Shown here piece by piece: positions 14,068 to 35,654 of a stretch of DNA of 35,654 bases (within the stretch, counting starts at the first letter, position 1; each line of letters begins with the position of its first letter). This DNA is from a virus: the IMG/VR virus record IMGVR_UViG_3300028821_000005, positions 1 through 35,654 of that record; one strand, written 5' to 3'. Position numbers and translations under genes: made by a program. Under the pieces are notes generated by a model, which worked only from the letters and a program-made list of their open reading frames with translations, searched no databases and was not told the origin of the DNA.

Positions 14068-14916
14068 CTATTTCTCCTCGAAGTAATCATAAATCTCAGG
14101 AACCTTAGGGTAGTTTTCTACTACAGCTAAGAATCTAGGTCCAGTTGAGTAGGCAAATACCTTAACATCTGGGAAGCAATGCTGCTTGTAGATACAATAA
14201 CTACACGCCATAGCTAACTTCATGTTCCCTGACTTACCTTCTGGTACTAAATCATAGCATTGTTCTGGGATGTTATCATCTTCAACCATACACTTAAGGT
14301 AATCAATCCTCTCAGTGATAGGGTCATCGTACTTGAAGCTCTCAAAGTGAGTACAAAGATGTCCTGCTGCTTTATCAATAACTAACCAACCACCTTCATC
14401 ATGTCCTAGTGACTCTGCGTATCCTCGTAGTTGGTCGAGATAACCGAATGGGTCATCGTTTCGTACATTCCCTTCCTTGAACTTCTTAAATCCAAAGCTA
14501 GAGGCAGTCTTAACATCAATCAACATACCATCAATGACACAATCCATAGAACCTTTGACTCCATTTACCTCAGCCTTATGTTGCTGATGAGTAACTTCAT
14601 GTCCAGCTAATGAAGCTAGAGCTAAGACAAGTTCTTCAGTCGCATGACCATATAAGAACTTCATTAGAGTTGCTGGTGTCATAGACTCAGACTTGAATTG
14701 TCTATGTCTATACCAGAGGTATCTATCTTGCTTACCGATGCTACTCATACGAAGTTGTCCACCATCGTCATGCTTCGTAAGTACCTGATTCTTAAGGATA
14801 TTCTTCATAGCCTCACCAAAGTTATCCACAATCTTATCCACATCCACACCTTCGGCTGCTTCATTCTTAACTAACACCTCATAGATGTCATCTACTAAAT
14901 CTTCAATCTTCTTCAT
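14068..14916 (-). CDS. PD-(D/E)XK exonuclease, RecB/Cas4-like
   Basis: The product is 282 residues. The nuclease core shows GHATEE (residues 90-95), GSMD with D125, LIDVKTA with D134 and K136, and YLDQLRGY with Q162, the order found in RecB/Cas4-type nucleases. Near the C-terminus are CSYC and C247 (C238, C241, C247), matching the C-terminal part of a Cas4/AddB iron-sulphur cluster. The usual upstream Cys, expected near SSIGKQDRYLWY (residues 58-69), is missing. It probably does the job of T7 gp6: degrading host DNA, removing primers, or recombination with SSB. It has an AGGAG ribosome site at the polymerase stop and is co-transcribed with polymerase and resolvase. Confidence 0.85.
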   Translation of the reverse strand: MKKIEDLVDDIYEVLVKNEAAEGVDVDKIVDNFGEAMKNILKNQVLTKHDDGGQLRMSSIGKQDRYLWYRHRQFKSESMTPATLMKFLYGHATEELVLALASLAGHEVTHQQHKAEVNGVKGSMDCVIDGMLIDVKTASSFGFKKFKEGNVRNDDPFGYLDQLRGYAESLGHDEGGWLVIDKAAGHLCTHFESFKYDDPITERIDYLKCMVEDDNIPEQCYDLVPEGKSGNMKLAMACSYCIYKQHCFPDVKVFAYSTGPRFLAVVENYPKVPEIYDYFEEK

Positions 14917-14924
14917 AACTACTC

Positions 14925-16667
14925 CTAGTGAGTTTCAGCCCACGTATCTCCTACTTTAAATTCAGCATCAAGAGGACAGTTCATCTCATAGTATGTACCT
15001 GCCTCAATAATGCTCCCTACTGCCAAGCTTCCGAATAGACCAGCTTGTTCTTCTTTTACTTCTGTTTGAATCTCATCGTGGATATTCCCTACGAATCGAT
15101 AATCAATCTTGTAACTCTTAGCATACTCATCCAGTATTACTAAGGCTCTCTTCATTACTATCGCACCAGCTGATTGTAGTAATGTATTAAGAGCAGCGTG
15201 TGGACTTCTGATATGTAACTTCCTATCATCTAATCCTTTAATCGTGCCTTGTTCAGACAGCTTAGTAACTCTGTCTCGTAAATCTTTAAGTGCTGGCGTA
15301 TTAGCAAGGAAGTCTTTCTTAAGTCGTTTACCATCGCCACTTGTTCCTCCGACAATGTCTCCAATCTTTCCATCCCCAGCTCCGTACAAGAAAGCATAGA
15401 TGAAAGTCTTTGCCTGATTTCTTGATTCAAGTCCTGCAGCCATTTGATTTGCTGTGTGTATATCTCCATCTACAACCTCCTTAGTGTAATCTTCATTATC
15501 CATATAGTGTGCCAACATCCTTAACTCTAGACCTGACGCATCCATTCCTACTAACTTGTAACCATCTCTTACTTTAAATAACTTCCTACAATCCTCACCA
15601 TAAGGACTACCACTGGCAGGTACTTGAGCTAGGTTAGGTTTACTGTGTGTCATTCTATTAGTAACAGCACCTATAGGATTGATGTAAGAGTGTATTCTAT
15701 CTAGTAACCCTGCTGCCTCAATCCAAGAAGCTACTAACCCCAGTCTCTTTTGTAACATTAAATACCTAGCTATCAACTTACCTTCAGGGAAATCTACATT
15801 CTTTAGTATAGTCTCTGATACTTGAGGTGTACCTTCTGGTGTGAACTCAGTTGGTTCCCATCCATAATGTATAAGATGTCTAGCTATCTGTTTCCTACTA
15901 CCTAAATTAAAGGCAGGATAGGTAATCTTACCCCACCCTTGTTCAGGGTCTAGGTAAGCTTGAGCATCTAGTTGTCTTTGGAATGAGGCTGCTACACTCT
16001 TATCTTTCTTATAAGGTTTACTTGGAAAGCTAAGTGATACATAAGTAGGTAAAGGTACAAAGACTTCTCTTACCTCATCCTCAGCCTTGAACATCTCAGA
16101 CTTAAGTTCTGCTTGTAAGGTGATAGCATCTCTAGTATTAAACTCCCAACCATTCAGCTTCTGTTGATTGATTATCTTAGCTACCTTATACTCCAGAGCT
16201 ATAGCATCTTTAGATAACTTCTGTTGAAGTAGTAAGTTGTATAGACTGTATGTAACCTTGACATCTTGAATACAATACTCAAGCATCTCTTGGTTATAGT
16301 TACTCCAAGCATCTTCTCTCTTACCGAAGTCACCCTTAGCATTACCTAGTCTCTCACCCCAAGCATCTAAACTATGACCACCCTTACGACTGGGGCTATC
16401 TAACCTAGACAGAACTAAGGTATCTTCAATCTCACCCCACCAAGTAAAGTGTAGTATTCTTTCTATGACTGGTATGTCGAAGTTGATAATGTTATGTCCT
16501 ATTAATACATCTACCTTGTTATCTTGTAACCAAGGTATGAAGTCTCTAACATTACTAGGCTCGAAGGTAGTAGGTTCATCCCATCTACCTACTATCTTGG
16601 CAGCAATACACCAGATGACTGATGGATTAAGACCATTAGTTTCTATGTCGAATACTACCTTTACCAT
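14925..16667 (-). CDS. Family A DNA polymerase with 3'-5' exonuclease (T7 type)
   Basis: The product is 580 residues. The exonuclease domain is intact: FDIETNG (D7, E9), GHNIINFDIPV (D64) and YCIQDVKVTY (Y131, D135). The polymerase domain has motif A MDASGLELR (D376, R383), motif B RNQAKTFIYAFLYGAG (R416, K420, Y424) and motif C NIHDE (H530-E532). Y424 corresponds to T7 Tyr526, so it should accept dideoxynucleotides. It is shorter than T7 gp5 (704 residues), with a shorter thumb region (about 171-254), so a thioredoxin-binding loop like T7's may be absent. The GAGGAG ribosome site lies inside the overlapping 50-residue gene. It is the replicative polymerase of the phage. Confidence 0.95.
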   Translation of the reverse strand: MVKVVFDIETNGLNPSVIWCIAAKIVGRWDEPTTFEPSNVRDFIPWLQDNKVDVLIGHNIINFDIPVIERILHFTWWGEIEDTLVLSRLDSPSRKGGHSLDAWGERLGNAKGDFGKREDAWSNYNQEMLEYCIQDVKVTYSLYNLLLQQKLSKDAIALEYKVAKIINQQKLNGWEFNTRDAITLQAELKSEMFKAEDEVREVFVPLPTYVSLSFPSKPYKKDKSVAASFQRQLDAQAYLDPEQGWGKITYPAFNLGSRKQIARHLIHYGWEPTEFTPEGTPQVSETILKNVDFPEGKLIARYLMLQKRLGLVASWIEAAGLLDRIHSYINPIGAVTNRMTHSKPNLAQVPASGSPYGEDCRKLFKVRDGYKLVGMDASGLELRMLAHYMDNEDYTKEVVDGDIHTANQMAAGLESRNQAKTFIYAFLYGAGDGKIGDIVGGTSGDGKRLKKDFLANTPALKDLRDRVTKLSEQGTIKGLDDRKLHIRSPHAALNTLLQSAGAIVMKRALVILDEYAKSYKIDYRFVGNIHDEIQTEVKEEQAGLFGSLAVGSIIEAGTYYEMNCPLDAEFKVGDTWAETH

Positions 16668-16788
16668 TCTTCTTCTCCTCTTTAGCTGCCTGTCTAGCTT
16701 TAGCTCTTCGGTACTCCCTAGAGTTTAGTAACACAGCATCCTTTAGACTACCAGTGCCACTGTTTTTAGCTGTTGTTTTTCCTCCCAT
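16636..16788 (-). CDS. 50-residue basic protein between helicase and polymerase
   Basis: The ATG overlaps the TAA of the primase-helicase gene (TAATG), and the 3' end overlaps the polymerase start by 32 bases, so the three genes form a coupled unit. The product is rich in Lys and Arg: MGGKTTAKNSGTGSLKDAVL, then SREYRRAKARQAAKEEKKN and a basic tail. A mostly helical, nucleic-acid-binding or adaptor peptide is plausible. It carries the polymerase ribosome site within its own sequence. It is too short for most annotation pipelines. No family is recognised. Confidence 0.7.
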   Translation of the reverse strand: MGGKTTAKNSGTGSLKDAVLLNSREYRRAKARQAAKEEKKNGKGSIRHRN

Positions 16789-18401
16789 TACATCTCCTCT
16801 GGTGCTGTTGTCTCCCTCAGTCTAGCTGTGTCTGAATCATACTGAAGGTATCCTGTTATCCCTGTCTCACCTGTGTATCTATTCTTTAGAATCCTAAGTG
16901 TTGTTGTGTTCCTAGCGATAGGGTCTTCGCTTTGTTGGTTACGTTCTAATGCAATAACTATATTAGATAGTTGAGCAATACCTTGTGAACCTCTTAGATG
17001 ATTTAATGAGATAGCTCCACCTTCTTCATGTGGTGTACCTTGTTGTCTAGATAAGTGAGACACTACAAACAATCCAATGTTAGTTTCAACTACTACCTCA
17101 CGCAGCTTAGTCATTAAAGCATCGATGTTCCTACGCTCATCACCCTTAGCATCACCAGACATTACCAAGTTAAGGTGGTCTAATACAATCCACTTAATAC
17201 CCTGAGCCTTAGCCATCAACCTGATACGACTGACAATCTTCTCAATAGATAACTCCTTACCATCGTATAAGGTTAGAGCTTCTCCATCTTTCCTTTCAAA
17301 GAGTTCATCGAAAGCATCTGAAGCTACCTCTCGTTTAGTTAGAGTTCTACATTCATCTAAGTGATAAGGTCTCTTAAGATGAATACCAACTAGACCATCG
17401 ATAGTTCTTTCAGTAGTTTCTTCTAGGTGAATCACTCCAACCTTGTCAGGCGTTTGTGTCAGTAGGTGGTACTCCAGTTCTCTAACTACAGAAGACTTAC
17501 CCATACCAGTACCTGATGTAATAGTCACCAGCTCCCCTAGTCTAAACCCCTGTGTCTTAGCATTAAGACATACCCAAGGATACATAACCGAGGCTTGCTC
17601 TGGTCTCTCTAGCCAAGTTTCCTTTAGTTGTGTAGCACCGATGATATCAGTAGGCATCCAGCTCTTAGCGTTCCAGAAACATTCAGTAATCTCTTTAACA
17701 AGACCAGCTTGTAACATATCACTGATGTCTTTGTAACCTTCAGGGTAAGACATAATCTTAATCTTCTCTGGTGAGAACAACGCGATAGCTTTATCAATAG
17801 CTTTCTTACCTGCATCATCCTTATCAAAAGCTAGTACGATATGGTCAAAGGAATCAAGGAACTCATAGCTGCCTTGTATAGACTTCTCTACACTGGAGCT
17901 GCCATTCTTCAATGAACATACCGCCCACTTACCATTGAATACCTCAGCTAGGGACAAGGCATCTATCTCACCCTCAGTAACTGTGATGTACTTACCACCT
18001 TTATCCCAGAGACACTCACCAAATAGACCAGTGTCTTTGAAGCTACCTTCCGTATGGAACTTCTTAGTAGGTACGTCTCTTACTTTATAAGCTGTAACTC
18101 TACAAGCTTGGTCAGTGAAAGGATAGTAATGAGTATCACCATCTGAAGATACTCTAACTTGATACTGCTTACAGATAGCTTCAGAGATTCTACGCTTAGG
18201 GATAGCACCCCAAGTACCTTTGATAGGTAGCTCTTCACTTGTTGTTATCTTCCTTGTATAAGAAGTAGATACTTGTGCTGTAGCTTTACCATCCCAGAAG
18301 TTACATCCTTCTGTAAAGCAATGCTTATGGTCATCATAGACCGCTACGTTATCCTCACTTCCACACTTGGGACACGCCTCATGTTTAATAAACTTACTCA
18401 T
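16788..18401 (-). CDS. Primase-helicase (T7 gp4-like)
   Basis: The product is 537 residues, near T7 gp4's 566. An N-terminal zinc ribbon CPKC...C28...C33 (Cys10, 13, 28, 33) is followed by a TOPRIM primase with VTEGEIDALS (E143, D147) and FDKDDAGK (D193, D195). The DnaB/RecA-type helicase has Walker A SGTGMGKS (296-303), EET at 328-330, Walker B WIVLDHL (D408) and SHLSRQQG. It unwinds DNA 5'-3' and lays primers for the adjacent polymerase. GAGGATTCAAA precedes ATG. A 130-base gap upstream with a TATAAA element could hold an internal promoter. Confidence 0.93.
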   Translation of the reverse strand: MSKFIKHEACPKCGSEDNVAVYDDHKHCFTEGCNFWDGKATAQVSTSYTRKITTSEELPIKGTWGAIPKRRISEAICKQYQVRVSSDGDTHYYPFTDQACRVTAYKVRDVPTKKFHTEGSFKDTGLFGECLWDKGGKYITVTEGEIDALSLAEVFNGKWAVCSLKNGSSSVEKSIQGSYEFLDSFDHIVLAFDKDDAGKKAIDKAIALFSPEKIKIMSYPEGYKDISDMLQAGLVKEITECFWNAKSWMPTDIIGATQLKETWLERPEQASVMYPWVCLNAKTQGFRLGELVTITSGTGMGKSSVVRELEYHLLTQTPDKVGVIHLEETTERTIDGLVGIHLKRPYHLDECRTLTKREVASDAFDELFERKDGEALTLYDGKELSIEKIVSRIRLMAKAQGIKWIVLDHLNLVMSGDAKGDERRNIDALMTKLREVVVETNIGLFVVSHLSRQQGTPHEEGGAISLNHLRGSQGIAQLSNIVIALERNQQSEDPIARNTTTLRILKNRYTGETGITGYLQYDSDTARLRETTAPEEM

Positions 18402-19784: not shown

Positions 19785-19994
19785 CTACTTCCCCTTAATA
19801 TATCTTTGATAAACTTGAGCTATGTCTGAATGTGTACACTTGACACCTTCCTCTGTTAACCATTTACTTATTTCTTTATAAGTATATCTCTTCTCCCTTA
19901 ACACCTTAACAACAGGCACTAGCTTTATCCACTTATGTGTCTTAGAATAGGTGCTTGGTTCAGGTGCTTGCTGTGCTTTCTCTAGTAAGTTCAT
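19785..19994 (-). CDS. Small putative DNA-binding protein (helix-turn-helix-like)
   Basis: The product is 69 residues from ATG 19994, whose ATGA overlaps the upstream stop; a GTG at 20006 would add four residues and is less likely. The C-terminal half (residues 24-65: LVPVVKVLREKRYTYKEISKWL, then EEGVKCTHSDIAQVYQRY) has the spacing of a helix-turn-helix found in phage and plasmid regulators. It is the only clear DNA-binding candidate among the small early genes, so it could regulate the divergent control region or bind repeats near the origin. That link is inference. Confidence 0.65.
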   Translation of the reverse strand: MNLLEKAQQAPEPSTYSKTHKWIKLVPVVKVLREKRYTYKEISKWLTEEGVKCTHSDIAQVYQRYIKGK

Positions 19995-20167
19995 TTCTTT
20001 CCCCACTCAGTTGATAAGGTTCTTACTTTATCAAGCATACCTTGTTGCATTTCTATAATCTTATCTTGTTTATCGACTAATGATTCTAGTAATCTAATCT
20101 CTTTATTAAGACCGTTTATCAATGCTATATCTTCCTGTATTAATTGTGCTTTTAAATCTTCCATCAT
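19991..20167 (-). CDS. 58-residue coiled-coil protein
   Basis: The chosen start is ATG 20167, in an ATGA overlap with the preceding stop and eight bases after GAGG; a TTG further upstream would extend it by eight residues without better support. The product is a heptad-rich helix (EDIALINGLNKEIRLLESLV, then KQDKIIEMQQGMLDKVRTL), predicted to dimerise. Small coiled-coil early proteins often bind and inhibit host proteins, but there is no specific evidence here. Confidence 0.65.
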   Translation of the reverse strand: MMEDLKAQLIQEDIALINGLNKEIRLLESLVDKQDKIIEMQQGMLDKVRTLSTEWGKK

Positions 20168-23169: not shown

Positions 23170-23709
23170 TTAAAACATATCTTCAAACCTTGTACCTGCG
23201 TAAGGTTCGGGTTGCCCTGCTTGGGTTAAGTCTTGCGGGGCATGGGGGCAAATACTTTCGAGTGTTGTTTCTTCGTGTTCTGCTCCGTTCCAAATGGCGG
23301 GATAGATTGCCACGCCTTGCTCATGGTTTAAATCGTGTATTTCTGCATCCCATTTCTTTGCAACGTCTTGGGTTATCTGATACGCTTTAGAAACTAACGC
23401 CTTGGAGATTACATTATCGTAAACCATAGCCAAACCATTGCGATTAAAATCACTGTGGTTTTGTTCTAGTTCGCATTGACTTCTAATATAGTGGTATCTA
23501 TTTTCCCAAAGTTTGGCAAGGCTTGCACCGCCTTTGACCTTTGAAAGTTTATCGATTAAGTTTCCTTTCCTTTCTTGAAAGACTAACTGAGCCGATGTCT
23601 TGGGTTGTTGTTGTTGTTCGTCTTGTTTTGCCATGCGTTGTAGTTGTCCATCTGTTTTATTTATTGTTGATGGTGTTATCTTTGCAAATTGTAATATAAA
23701 GTCTTTCAT
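23170..23709 (-). CDS. 179-residue protein beside the origin-like region, candidate initiator or regulator
   Basis: The product is 179 residues with a GGAG ribosome site. The N-terminus has a polyGln patch (KQDEQQQQPKT), then a basic helical region (ERKGNLIDKLSKVKGGASLAKLWENRYHYI), helices with NHSDFNRNGLAMVYDNVISKAL, and a Pro-rich end (PHAPQDLTQAGQPEPYAG). No known domain is recognised. By eye the gene is richer in G+C and uses different codons from the neighbouring early genes, hinting at separate origin. It has its own terminator and lies next to iterons and DnaA boxes, so a replication-initiator or copy-control role is a reasonable guess only. Confidence 0.65.
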   Translation of the reverse strand: MKDFILQFAKITPSTINKTDGQLQRMAKQDEQQQQPKTSAQLVFQERKGNLIDKLSKVKGGASLAKLWENRYHYIRSQCELEQNHSDFNRNGLAMVYDNVISKALVSKAYQITQDVAKKWDAEIHDLNHEQGVAIYPAIWNGAEHEETTLESICPHAPQDLTQAGQPEPYAGTRFEDMF

Positions 23710-23713
23710 TTTC

Positions 23714-23881
23714 TTATATCTCCGTAAGTGTTAAAAGTTGGCTTTGTAGTTGTTGCTTGAGGGTTGCCAATTCCATCAAACGCCTTGGTTTTGTTATCAC
23801 CTTGGTTAAGGTATCGATAGTGTTTAAATCATCAGTGATGGCTATTTTTAGAGTTTTTAAAATCATTCTGTCTTTTATCAT
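23714..23881 (-). CDS. 55-residue basic helical protein, partner of the 179-residue gene
   Basis: The chosen start is ATG 23881 after AGGAAATAGACC; a GTG at 23914 would extend it into the long inverted repeat and is less likely. The product is a basic helix pair (MIKDRMILKTLKIAITDDLN, ITKPRRLMELATLKQQLQ). It ends four bases before the 179-residue gene, so the two form an operon. The upstream region is a long palindrome. Small basic proteins before replication genes can be copy-control or partition factors; no proof is seen here. Confidence 0.6.
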   Translation of the reverse strand: MIKDRMILKTLKIAITDDLNTIDTLTKVITKPRRLMELATLKQQLQSQLLTLTEI

Positions 23882-23912
23882 TGGTCTATTTCCTATTAGT
23901 TTAAAAAGCGAC

Positions 23913-23999
23913 ACCCTTTATTTGGTACTTGATTAAATAAATTGAAGTGTCAACCTCCTCGACTTTAATTTATTTCAGCACGTACCAAAGAAAGGGATA
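23913..23999. repeat. Long imperfect inverted repeat upstream of the 55/179-residue cassette
   Basis: Arms of about 37 bases (23913-23948 and 23963-23999) are complementary at about 32 positions around a 14-base loop. They share CCCTTT, TTGGTAC and AAATAAATT blocks. Unlike the repeat at 24165, most mismatches are transversions, so pairing in RNA is not specially preserved. It could be a DNA cruciform, a protein-binding site, or the 5' leader of the leftward cassette. Confidence 0.65.
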
Positions 24000-24164
24000 C
24001 AAAAGATGTTCTTTATCTTTTGTTATTAACTCAACACAACAACTTACTTAATAGTATTAAGGGTCATTAGGTTTAACCTCCGCTTTATCTTAATAACAAT
24101 CCTTTAATCTTTAATATCAACATCATGTCTTTAGTAGTTACCTACATAGGTAGTCAAGCACACC

Positions 24165-24318
24165 ACAAGAGTTATCCATAATTGTTTGTAACTATCGGAA
24201 ACAACCTCGGTGATAACTAAATAGCGTAAGCGGTCTTTAGCCCCCTAAAAAGGGGCTTAAGAATTTAGTTATGCTGGGGTTGTTCTGATAGTTATGAACA
24301 ATTGTGGATAACTCTTGT
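24165..24318 (+). ncRNA. Candidate structured RNA: 57-base stem with internal hairpin and DnaA boxes in both arms
   Basis: The left arm 24165-24221 and right arm 24264-24318 are complementary at about 47 of 57 positions. Six mismatches are transitions, and all six become G-U pairs if the + strand is transcribed (they would be A-C mismatches from the other strand), which hints at selection for a rightward RNA. The 42-base loop contains a second stem (TCTTTAGCCCC with GGGGCTTAAGA, 24234-24262). The arms also carry TTATCCATA (24172-24180) and a perfect DnaA box TGTGGATAA (24303-24311), so it may instead be an origin element. Existence of the RNA is inference. Confidence 0.45.
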
Positions 24319-24340
24319 CCTCGATATAAAGGTGGTTTAC

Positions 24341-24428
24341 TTAGTTGATAACCATAGGTTTGTTAGTTAATAACCACTGGTTAATTAGTTTATAACCATA
24401 GGTAAACATAATCATAACCATAGGTAAT
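24341..24428 (+). repeat. Four tandem 22-bp iterons
   Basis: The core ATAACCATAGGT occurs at 24348, 24370 (as ATAACCACTGGT), 24392 and 24414, spaced exactly 22 bp each. In the first three, TTAGTT precedes the core at the same distance; the fourth has CATAATC. A degenerate unit with ATAA in phase may precede them at 24326. Direct repeats of about 20-22 bp, two helical turns, next to DnaA boxes and AT-rich DNA are the hallmark of theta-replicating plasmid origins, where Rep binds each unit. Confidence 0.8.
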
Positions 24429-24431
24429 GAA

Positions 24432-24505
24432 GGAAGACCGAAGGGCTTGCCTGAATCCGTAGCAAGACCTCGGCTTGCGTAGGCAACACAAGACCTTGGC
24501 TTGGG
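24432..24505. repeat. Three imperfect AAGACC...GGCTTG repeats
   Basis: Three related segments follow the iterons: 24432-24451, 24462-24479 and 24488-24505, each containing AAGACC and then GGCTTG. The second and third are also partly palindromic (CAAGaCCtcGGcTTG). The spacing is irregular. They are locally GC-rich in an AT-rich zone and may be sites for a second protein or small hairpins. Confidence 0.5.
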
Positions 24506-24708
24506 TTGAACCTCATTCAATATTAATTAATATAGGTAATGGTATAGGTAGTTTGACTGTCTATCATTACTTCACACACTCAAGGATACTACGATACCTC
24601 GAATCACTCGAGTATCTACATCAGTCATAGCAACACCTAGGGGGAGGCTCATGTGACACGTCCAGACTATTAATAAACTATCATAAGTAGATGAGAGAGG
24701 GGTTTGGG

Positions 24709-24772
24709 TTTATTCAATTAATTATAGATTTAATTAAGTAATTGTGGATAACTATGTGGATAACTTTAATTA
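24709..24772. other. AT-rich element with two perfect DnaA boxes (origin unwinding candidate)
   Basis: TGTGGATAA, the complement of the consensus DnaA box TTATCCACA, occurs at 24743-24751 and 24755-24763, 12 bases apart, inside DNA that is otherwise nearly all A and T. A third perfect box lies at 24303-24311. Together with the iterons about 300 bases away this forms the standard set of a plasmid replication origin: initiator sites, DnaA sites and an easily melted region. Confidence 0.6.
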
Positions 24773-24998
24773 CGTGAGAAAAGCGGGTTTCGGCTTTACT
24801 TTAGCTTGTTTATCAGCTACAATCGAACCTAAGTTCCTACTTAAGTAAACATGAGTTCTGCGGACAACTTTCATTACCTTTAGAGGATAACCTTTAGTAA
24901 TCACCTATCCCCTTTCAGGGAATCTAGGATGGCTCTAAAGCTATCAACGAAAGTGAGAGAAAACACCTCACAACACTTCATACAACTTAAGTTAACTT

Positions 24999-25050
24999 AA
25001 GTATCTTAAGTAGAAGTAACTCCCTCGTCTTTAGTCTACTTAAGATACTT
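24999..25050. repeat. Perfect 16-bp inverted repeat before the terminase genes
   Basis: AAGTATCTTAAGTAGA at 24999-25014 is exactly complementary to 25035-25050, with a 20-base loop. No T-run follows on either strand, so it is not a standard terminator. It ends 20 bases before a TATAAT box, a position suited to an operator or to a packaging recognition site near the small terminase gene. Confidence 0.65.
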
Positions 25051-25069
25051 AGGTGGTTCGATTGATGTT

Positions 25070-25075
25070 TATAAT
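25070..25075 (+). promoter_or_regulatory. -10 element of a probable rightward late promoter
   Basis: A perfect TATAAT lies 25 bases before the first terminase-region start codon. No good -35 is present at the usual distance, so the promoter may need an activator, and the inverted repeat immediately upstream could supply its site. It would start the packaging/head operon. Confidence 0.4.
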
Positions 25076-25100
25076 GTTTAGCCCTATATAGGATAACTAG

Positions 25101-35104: not shown

Positions 35105-35654
35105 ATGGCACTACCAAGTTCAGGAAGTATATCCCTAAACCAAGTTAATGTAGAACTAGGTAACTCAGGTACTGCTACCATCAATATGGGTAGTAGTGCT
35201 GTACGTGGGTTGTTTGATAGGGCATCAGGTTCTATTGGTATGGGTCACGGTCACGGTAAAGCTAATGCTACAGCTTTAACTATCTCGTCTAATGTAAACA
35301 ACTATGATATTGGTGCATCTGCTATCGCAGCAGGTGGTGACAAATCTACTTCTGTTACTTTAACTATTAACTCAGGTGTTACTGTAGGCTCTACTTCTGC
35401 AGGCACAGCAGCGATGTACACAGGCACAGGTTGGTCATCAGGAACAATCATTACGATTACTAATAATGGTTCTATTGTGGGCGCTAGTGGCTCTAATTCT
35501 ACAGGCTCAGGCGGTGGTGCAGGTGGTACAGGTGGTGGTGGCACAAATGGCTATTCCACTACAAGCGTGGCTGGCAGTTCAGGAAGTAATGGCTCAGGCT
35601 CTGCAGCATCATCAGCAAACGGTGGAGATGGTTACGACCACCAACAAACAGGCT
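35105..35654 (+). CDS. Glycine-rich tail adhesin, N-terminal part (continues at base 2)
   Basis: The N-terminal 45 residues (MALPSSGSISLNQVNVELGN, then SAVRGLFDRASGSIGMGHGH) form a segment I recall from many phage tail proteins and take as the virion-binding part. It is followed by a beta-rich stretch (ALTISSNVNNYDIGASAIA, SVTLTINSGVTVG) and a glycine-rich region that runs on past the contig end into 2-604. The joined product is about 351 residues. GGAATAAATA gives a weak ribosome site four bases after the previous stop. It probably forms the distal host-binding tip together with the S74 fibre. Confidence 0.75.
   Translation, partial: MALPSSGSISLNQVNVELGNSGTATINMGSSAVRGLFDRASGSIGMGHGHGKANATALTISSNVNNYDIGASAIAAGGDKSTSVTLTINSGVTVGSTSAGTAAMYTGTGWSSGTIITITNNGSIVGASGSNSTGSGGGAGGTGGGGTNGYSTTSVAGSSGSNGSGSAASSANGGDGYDHQQTG
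35557..35654 (+). repeat. Terminal overlap identical to bases 1-98 (circular assembly)
   Basis: All 98 bases match the start of the window, and the adhesin frame continues without a break when they are merged. This is most simply an assembler overlap from a circular or circularly permuted genome rather than a biological end repeat, because it lies in the middle of a gene. Confidence 0.95.

Follow-up and report, generated by a model that had tools for sequence, protein, structure and literature searches.

The window analysed here, a complete-looking viral contig of 35,654 nucleotides from a marine phage, contains a gap of ~1.2 kb (positions 23915-25100) that separates the leftward early genes from the rightward structural genes. 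Conserved tandem DnaA boxes next to a short AT-rich stretch share this gap with an array of four dyad repeats at an exact 22-bp phase. Our preferred reading, put forward tentatively and with somewhat less than even confidence, is that the gap represents a compound origin and control region with a DnaA core and an accessory array, the core being the likelier origin of the two. We infer that replication may start at this position, that DnaA may be used there, and that the array may act in replication. Specifically, host DnaA would bind the tandem boxes beside the AT-rich stretch in the conserved half of the gap, and would help to open the DNA for the phage primase-helicase and polymerase. Dimers of a putative DNA-binding protein, aligned on one face of the helix, would occupy the array and thereby modulate opening or helicase entry.

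The ends of the window are joined by a 98-bp direct repeat (1-98 and 35557-35654), which lies within a glycine-rich gene and closes a circle of about 35,556 bp. The repeat probably arose as an overlap in the assembly of a genome that is circular or permuted. The leftward gene block (13.5-23.9 kb) encodes RusA, a Cas4-like exonuclease, a family A DNA polymerase (14925-16667, minus strand), which was identified by family scan and by similarity to isolate polymerases, and a T7 gp4-type primase-helicase (16788-18401, minus strand), identified by family scan. The rightward block encodes TerL, portal, capsid and tail proteins. The initial annotation had noted a T7-like helicase and polymerase and the lack of an integrase; indeed, both enzymes were found, and the family search for an integrase in the window was negative. 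A family search for a Rep_3 initiator was negative as well, a tRNA search returned none, and no partition or repressor genes were seen among the proteins that were family-scanned. A phage RNA polymerase was not recognised in the gene list, and its absence rests on that list since the corresponding family search matched nothing, its control included. The nearest isolate DNA polymerases, from pelagiphages and roseophages, are less than 50% identical to that of the window, and its large protein of 1327 aa had no match among phage records. The window therefore belongs to a group without a close isolate. The GC skew follows gene direction and was for that reason rejected as evidence for an origin; the lack of a switch opposite the gap is a point against a compound origin.

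DnaA boxes and a long hairpin in the intergenic gap

Perfect DnaA boxes (TTATCCACA, minus strand) are located at 24303, 24743 and 24755, as initially annotated. The presence of three such boxes in the gap compares with a mean of 0.0135 in shuffled sequences. Two of them form a tandem pair, 12 bp apart (24743-24751 and 24755-24763), and this exact pair was retrieved from ~30 relatives, where the spacing is kept down to ~70% gap identity. The third box (24303-24311) is part of the outer stem of the 154-nt hairpin described below and has a mirror copy, TTATCCATA, at 24172-24180. The looser motif TTWTNCACA is not enriched genome-wide, with 6 occurrences versus 3.9 expected, so it is the clustering that matters. 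Directly to the left of the tandem boxes lies a stretch with 90% A+T (24708-24745), a candidate unwinding element, and the flanking sequence is conserved in relatives. Clustered and conserved boxes beside AT-rich DNA, as expected of a DnaA-dependent origin, are thus present in the gap. Of the earlier description of the region as AT-rich and free of genes, the latter part holds, in that no convincing gene was found between 23915 and 25100, whereas the former applies only locally to 24708-24745, the gap having a GC content of about 36% as against about 38-39% and being overall not unusually AT-rich. Against a compound origin, the DnaA boxes are down to one or none in six relatives (L016-L018, L020, L036 and L040).

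Inside the exonuclease gene, at 14822-14842, two further perfect TTATCCACA boxes form another tandem pair, again 12 bp apart. It is kept in ~10 relatives and may reflect protein-coding constraint (VDKIVDN).

Repeat scans revealed two further elements at the borders of the gap. One is a cluster of CTTAAG palindromes together with an inverted repeat (24995-25054), which spans 24838-25054 and precedes TerS; the other is a second long inverted repeat (23914-23996), located where the leftward gene block begins. CTTAAG sites cluster upstream of TerL also in the 15 relatives checked. The sites before TerS are conserved as a cluster in relatives, and have a 9-bp spacing in L024. An Rfam search of the gap gave weak sub-threshold matches only, which we treated as chance, a BLAST search of the gap against phages and plasmids gave no match, and the fold of 24420-24720 was no better than that of shuffled sequences.

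A near-perfect hairpin of 154 nt (24165-24318, plus strand), which the initial annotation had overlooked, has a folding energy of -91 kcal/mol and a z-score of -14. When the hairpins of the window and L021 were compared, 20 of the 68 pairs had changed: pairing was kept by two-sided changes in 10 cases and by one-sided changes in 7, and it was broken in 3. Furthermore, most G-U pairs in the hairpins of the window, L021, L037 and L041 fall on the plus strand (7 v 2, 10 v 1, 8 v 1 and 9 v 1, respectively), which suggests that the hairpin is an RNA read rightward. Other relatives have long hairpins of unrelated sequence in the same position. Conceivably, the gap could chiefly be a transcription leader, in which the hairpin is made as a rightward RNA, for example for RNase III processing or as a leader, while the DnaA boxes tune a promoter. 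The stability of the hairpin, its pair-keeping changes and the G-U bias all favour this possibility. However, it leaves the array unexplained, the G-U bias could partly stem from strand-biased mutation, and a leader RNA is compatible with the compound-origin explanation. We consider a role chiefly as leader to be quite improbable.

A 22-bp-phased dyad array with counterparts in DUF6291 genes

The array (24348-24425) consists of four dyad repeats of the form ATAACC-NNN-GGT(T). Copies of ATAACCANWGGT begin at 24348, 24370, 24392 and 24414, with a step of exactly 22 bp. The sequence ATAACCATAGGT is present in three of the four copies, while the second copy reads ATAACCACTGGT. Four direct repeats at this spacing had already been proposed, and the proposal was borne out by a column agreement of 46/48 over the four copies. 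By comparison, 200 dinucleotide shuffles scored no higher than 37 at period 22, and 60 shuffles gave the same maximum when any period from 15 to 30 was allowed. The array is beyond chance expectation. What the earlier reading had missed is that the core of each repeat is a dyad, AACC-N3-GGTT, with palindromic cores starting at 24350, 24372, 24394 and 24416. Judged by this architecture, the array looks like a set of putative initiator-binding sites. The strongest AT-rich stretch in the window lies ~280 bp away, by the DnaA boxes, whereas in L085 AT-rich repeats directly follow the array.

In a blind scan of IMG/VR for two copies of the window's own motif, four contigs were recovered: L085 and L087, which represent one TerL relative, and L084 and L086, which are unrelated to the window and carry the repeats inside a DUF6291 gene. 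The neighbours of these DUF6291 genes encode a DnaB helicase (L084) and a G39P-type helicase loader (L086). A scan for three copies of AACC-N3-GGT at 22-bp phase returned 22 viral contigs, five of which were simple tandem repeats. In fifteen of the 17 others, the array lies within a DUF6291 gene or next to one, the remaining two being L085 and L087 again. In L092 and L102 the array is located just upstream of the DUF6291 gene, and in the rest of the fifteen it lies inside the gene. By eye, on protein similarity, these fifteen contigs represent about eight lineages. A step of 22 bp shifts the reading frame from each copy to the next, so that the repeats in a single DUF6291 gene are translated in all three frames (KPVV, TSGY and NNQWL in L091), which indicates selection on the DNA rather than on the protein. 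In addition, AT-rich low-complexity DNA or codons follow the arrays in DUF6291 genes.

When 80 DUF6291 genes were collected by protein similarity, only two proved to carry the motif at 22 bp, so the motif represents one variant among several types of DUF6291 sites. Bacterial chromosomes, too, commonly contain repeats of this motif and phase; these occur mainly in Prevotella and, among the matches listed, mostly away from DUF6291. Both the small fraction of DUF6291 genes with the motif and its frequency in Prevotella chromosomes without DUF6291 (among the matches listed) argue against a compound origin. AACC-N3-GGT arrays at this phase are widespread in the chromosomes of Prevotella and other Bacteroidales (L110-L226, among the matches listed). 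No homologue of DUF6291 was recovered from the window or the L085 phage with a family search, hhalign or hmmsearch, where hhalign covered the early proteins of the window; the lack of a DUF6291 or Rep_3 homologue likewise counts against a compound origin. The literature searched contained no mention of DUF6291. The link to AACC-N3-GGTT at 22 bp would propose both a function and a binding site for this uncharacterised family.

The main rival to the compound origin is that the array is a set of operators. A phage regulator bound to the in-phase dyads would then control divergent transcription of the early and structural genes without taking part directly in replication, and the first early gene, hairpin and operators would be swapped together like an immunity or control cassette. 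Dyads spaced by 22 bp in a divergent intergenic gap would suit a dimeric regulator, and the window encodes a protein of 73 aa (19785-20006, minus strand) that is tri-helical and HTH-like. On the other hand, no sigma-70-like promoter was found inside the array, which lies more than 400 bp from the first leftward start, and arrays of matching motif and phase occur within DUF6291 genes, a position in which a promoter would not be expected. The 73-aa protein was found only in the window and was absent from all other phages, plasmids and viral contigs searched, the other array carriers included; the fragments L021 and L041 end before that locus, so that co-occurrence with the array cannot judge it. 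It is a weak candidate for the binder of the array. Altogether, we regard the operator explanation as a serious contender, but a doubtful one.

A conserved core and a swappable cassette

Comparison with relatives, most of which are metagenome fragments and several near-duplicates, divides the gap into two modules, an organisation that the initial annotation had overlooked. The first is a conserved core (24546-25100) with the tandem DnaA boxes, the AT-rich stretch and the CTTAAG cluster, which is common to essentially all close relatives. The second is a swappable cassette (23170-24545) that comprises the first early genes, the hairpins and the array. In L028, L029 and L032 the core is 98-99% identical, yet each of the three phages has a first gene of its own, with differing upstream sequences and hairpins, which we take to indicate that cassettes were exchanged recently.

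The window, L021 and L041, all of which have a first gene of type A, share the array in synteny and in the same register. The more distantly related L085/L087 phage has an array of the same phase and motif. In three other type A relatives (L006, L013 and L043), positions 24360-24542 are missing and at most one site is left, and L008 and L012 share the deletion of the L006/L043 lineage. The type A-like L032 has no array, and the same is true for eight relatives with other first-gene types and for most other relatives. The comparison of related contigs that the initial annotation had called for thus speaks in part against its reading: the 22-bp spacing holds for L021, L041 and L085, and fails for L006, L008, L012, L013 and L043, which have at most one site, and for most others, where the array is absent. 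Since the array was found only with type A among the synteny relatives and is lost in close relatives, it moves together with the cassette and can be dispensed with. This dispensability argues against a compound origin, and the confinement to a variable cassette would also fit a set of operators. By these comparisons, the DnaA core appears as the more conserved origin-like element.

Alternatively, the array might be a relic or hitchhiker that was recombined from an initiator-type origin and is unused, with replication from the DnaA core or from elsewhere. This would agree with the lack of a cognate initiator gene in the window, the loss of the array in the L006/L043 lineage, and the cassette swaps between phages that are 98-99% identical in the core. 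However, register and 22-bp phase are kept in the window, L021 and L041 despite ~70% identity elsewhere in the gap, which suggests selection on the array, and we consider a relic unlikely. A broader form of the compound-origin reading would be that a group of lytic-looking marine podoviruses with T7-type fork enzymes and no recognised RNA polymerase initiates replication from a compound origin, made up of a conserved host-DnaA core and a cassette (first early gene, long hairpin RNA and array) that is swapped as a unit between near-identical phages. This broader reading seems to us rather unlikely, more so than the operator explanation and less so than a relic.

The first sizeable gene of the type A cassette (23170-23709, minus strand) encodes a protein of 179 aa, which had been put forward as a possible Rep. 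Structure and homologue searches showed a helical bundle with no match in the PDB, no match to a DNA-binding fold and one marine viral homologue, and the protein was rejected as a Rep. A search for further type A cassettes returned only loci already known.

Comparison with known replication origins

The earlier interpretation of the locus as a plasmid-type origin is retained in part: the array looks like a set of initiator-type sites and the tandem DnaA boxes are conserved, so it is reasonable to suppose that host DnaA plus another factor are used at the gap. The term 'plasmid-type', in contrast, does not fit the dyads, the likeness to DUF6291 genes or the lack of a plasmid match. A true iteron origin, used by a phage-plasmid with a Rep, would share with Rep_3-type plasmid origins the 22-bp phase, the DnaA boxes and the AT-rich DNA, and the contig closes into a circle through its 98-bp end repeat. 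Yet the sites are dyads rather than plain direct repeats, the array is dispensable in relatives, and neither a Rep_3 protein nor an integrase was found in the window, nor a partition or repressor gene in the family scans. Nothing similar was present in 72,556 plasmid records. We hold it to be most improbable that the phage persists as a plasmid. The array is real, but no proof of a plasmid-like lifestyle, as the segment that holds it can be swapped and has been lost from some close relatives.

With T7 the window shares the fork enzymes (gp4 primase-helicase and family A polymerase). T7, however, initiates from promoters of its own RNA polymerase, whereas the window has no recognised RNA polymerase and conserved DnaA boxes instead. 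To our knowledge, the start of replication in phages with T7-like fork enzymes but without an RNA polymerase of their own has been little studied, and for such phages the locus offers a testable, modular candidate. Another parallel is offered by the cluster A mycobacteriophages with their RNA-based prophage origins (PMC7157519), where the control region likewise includes a probable noncoding RNA between genes. Those phages, however, are temperate and carry parABS (PMC7157519), while no parABS gene was seen in the window and a role of its RNA in replication is putative.

The origin of phage lambda has AT-rich DNA beside its sites, which are imperfect inverted repeats recognised by dimers of O (PMC7466680). 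The array of the window resembles it in having four imperfect inverted-repeat sites, about two helical turns apart, suited to a dimeric initiator. It differs in that the lambda iterons lie within gene O, whereas this array is intergenic, with DnaA boxes near and no O-like gene; moreover, lambda recruits host DnaB, while the fork proteins here are T7-like. A further comparison is with the phage genes of the DUF6291 family (PF19808) that contain internal arrays (such as those of L084, L086 and L091), which have the same AACC-N3-GGTT core and exact 22-bp phase as the window. On our analysis, a DUF6291 gene with its array has the layout of the lambda origin, and judging from their context, DUF6291 proteins would be initiators that bind their own arrays and look to be of the lambda O type. 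The window differs from these phages in that it has no DUF6291 gene and its array lies outside any gene. As a further variant, seven AT-rich 9-bp repeats follow the 22-bp array in L085, and a DnaA-box-like run is located ~150 bp before TerS (L085:2331-2398 / L085:199-294).
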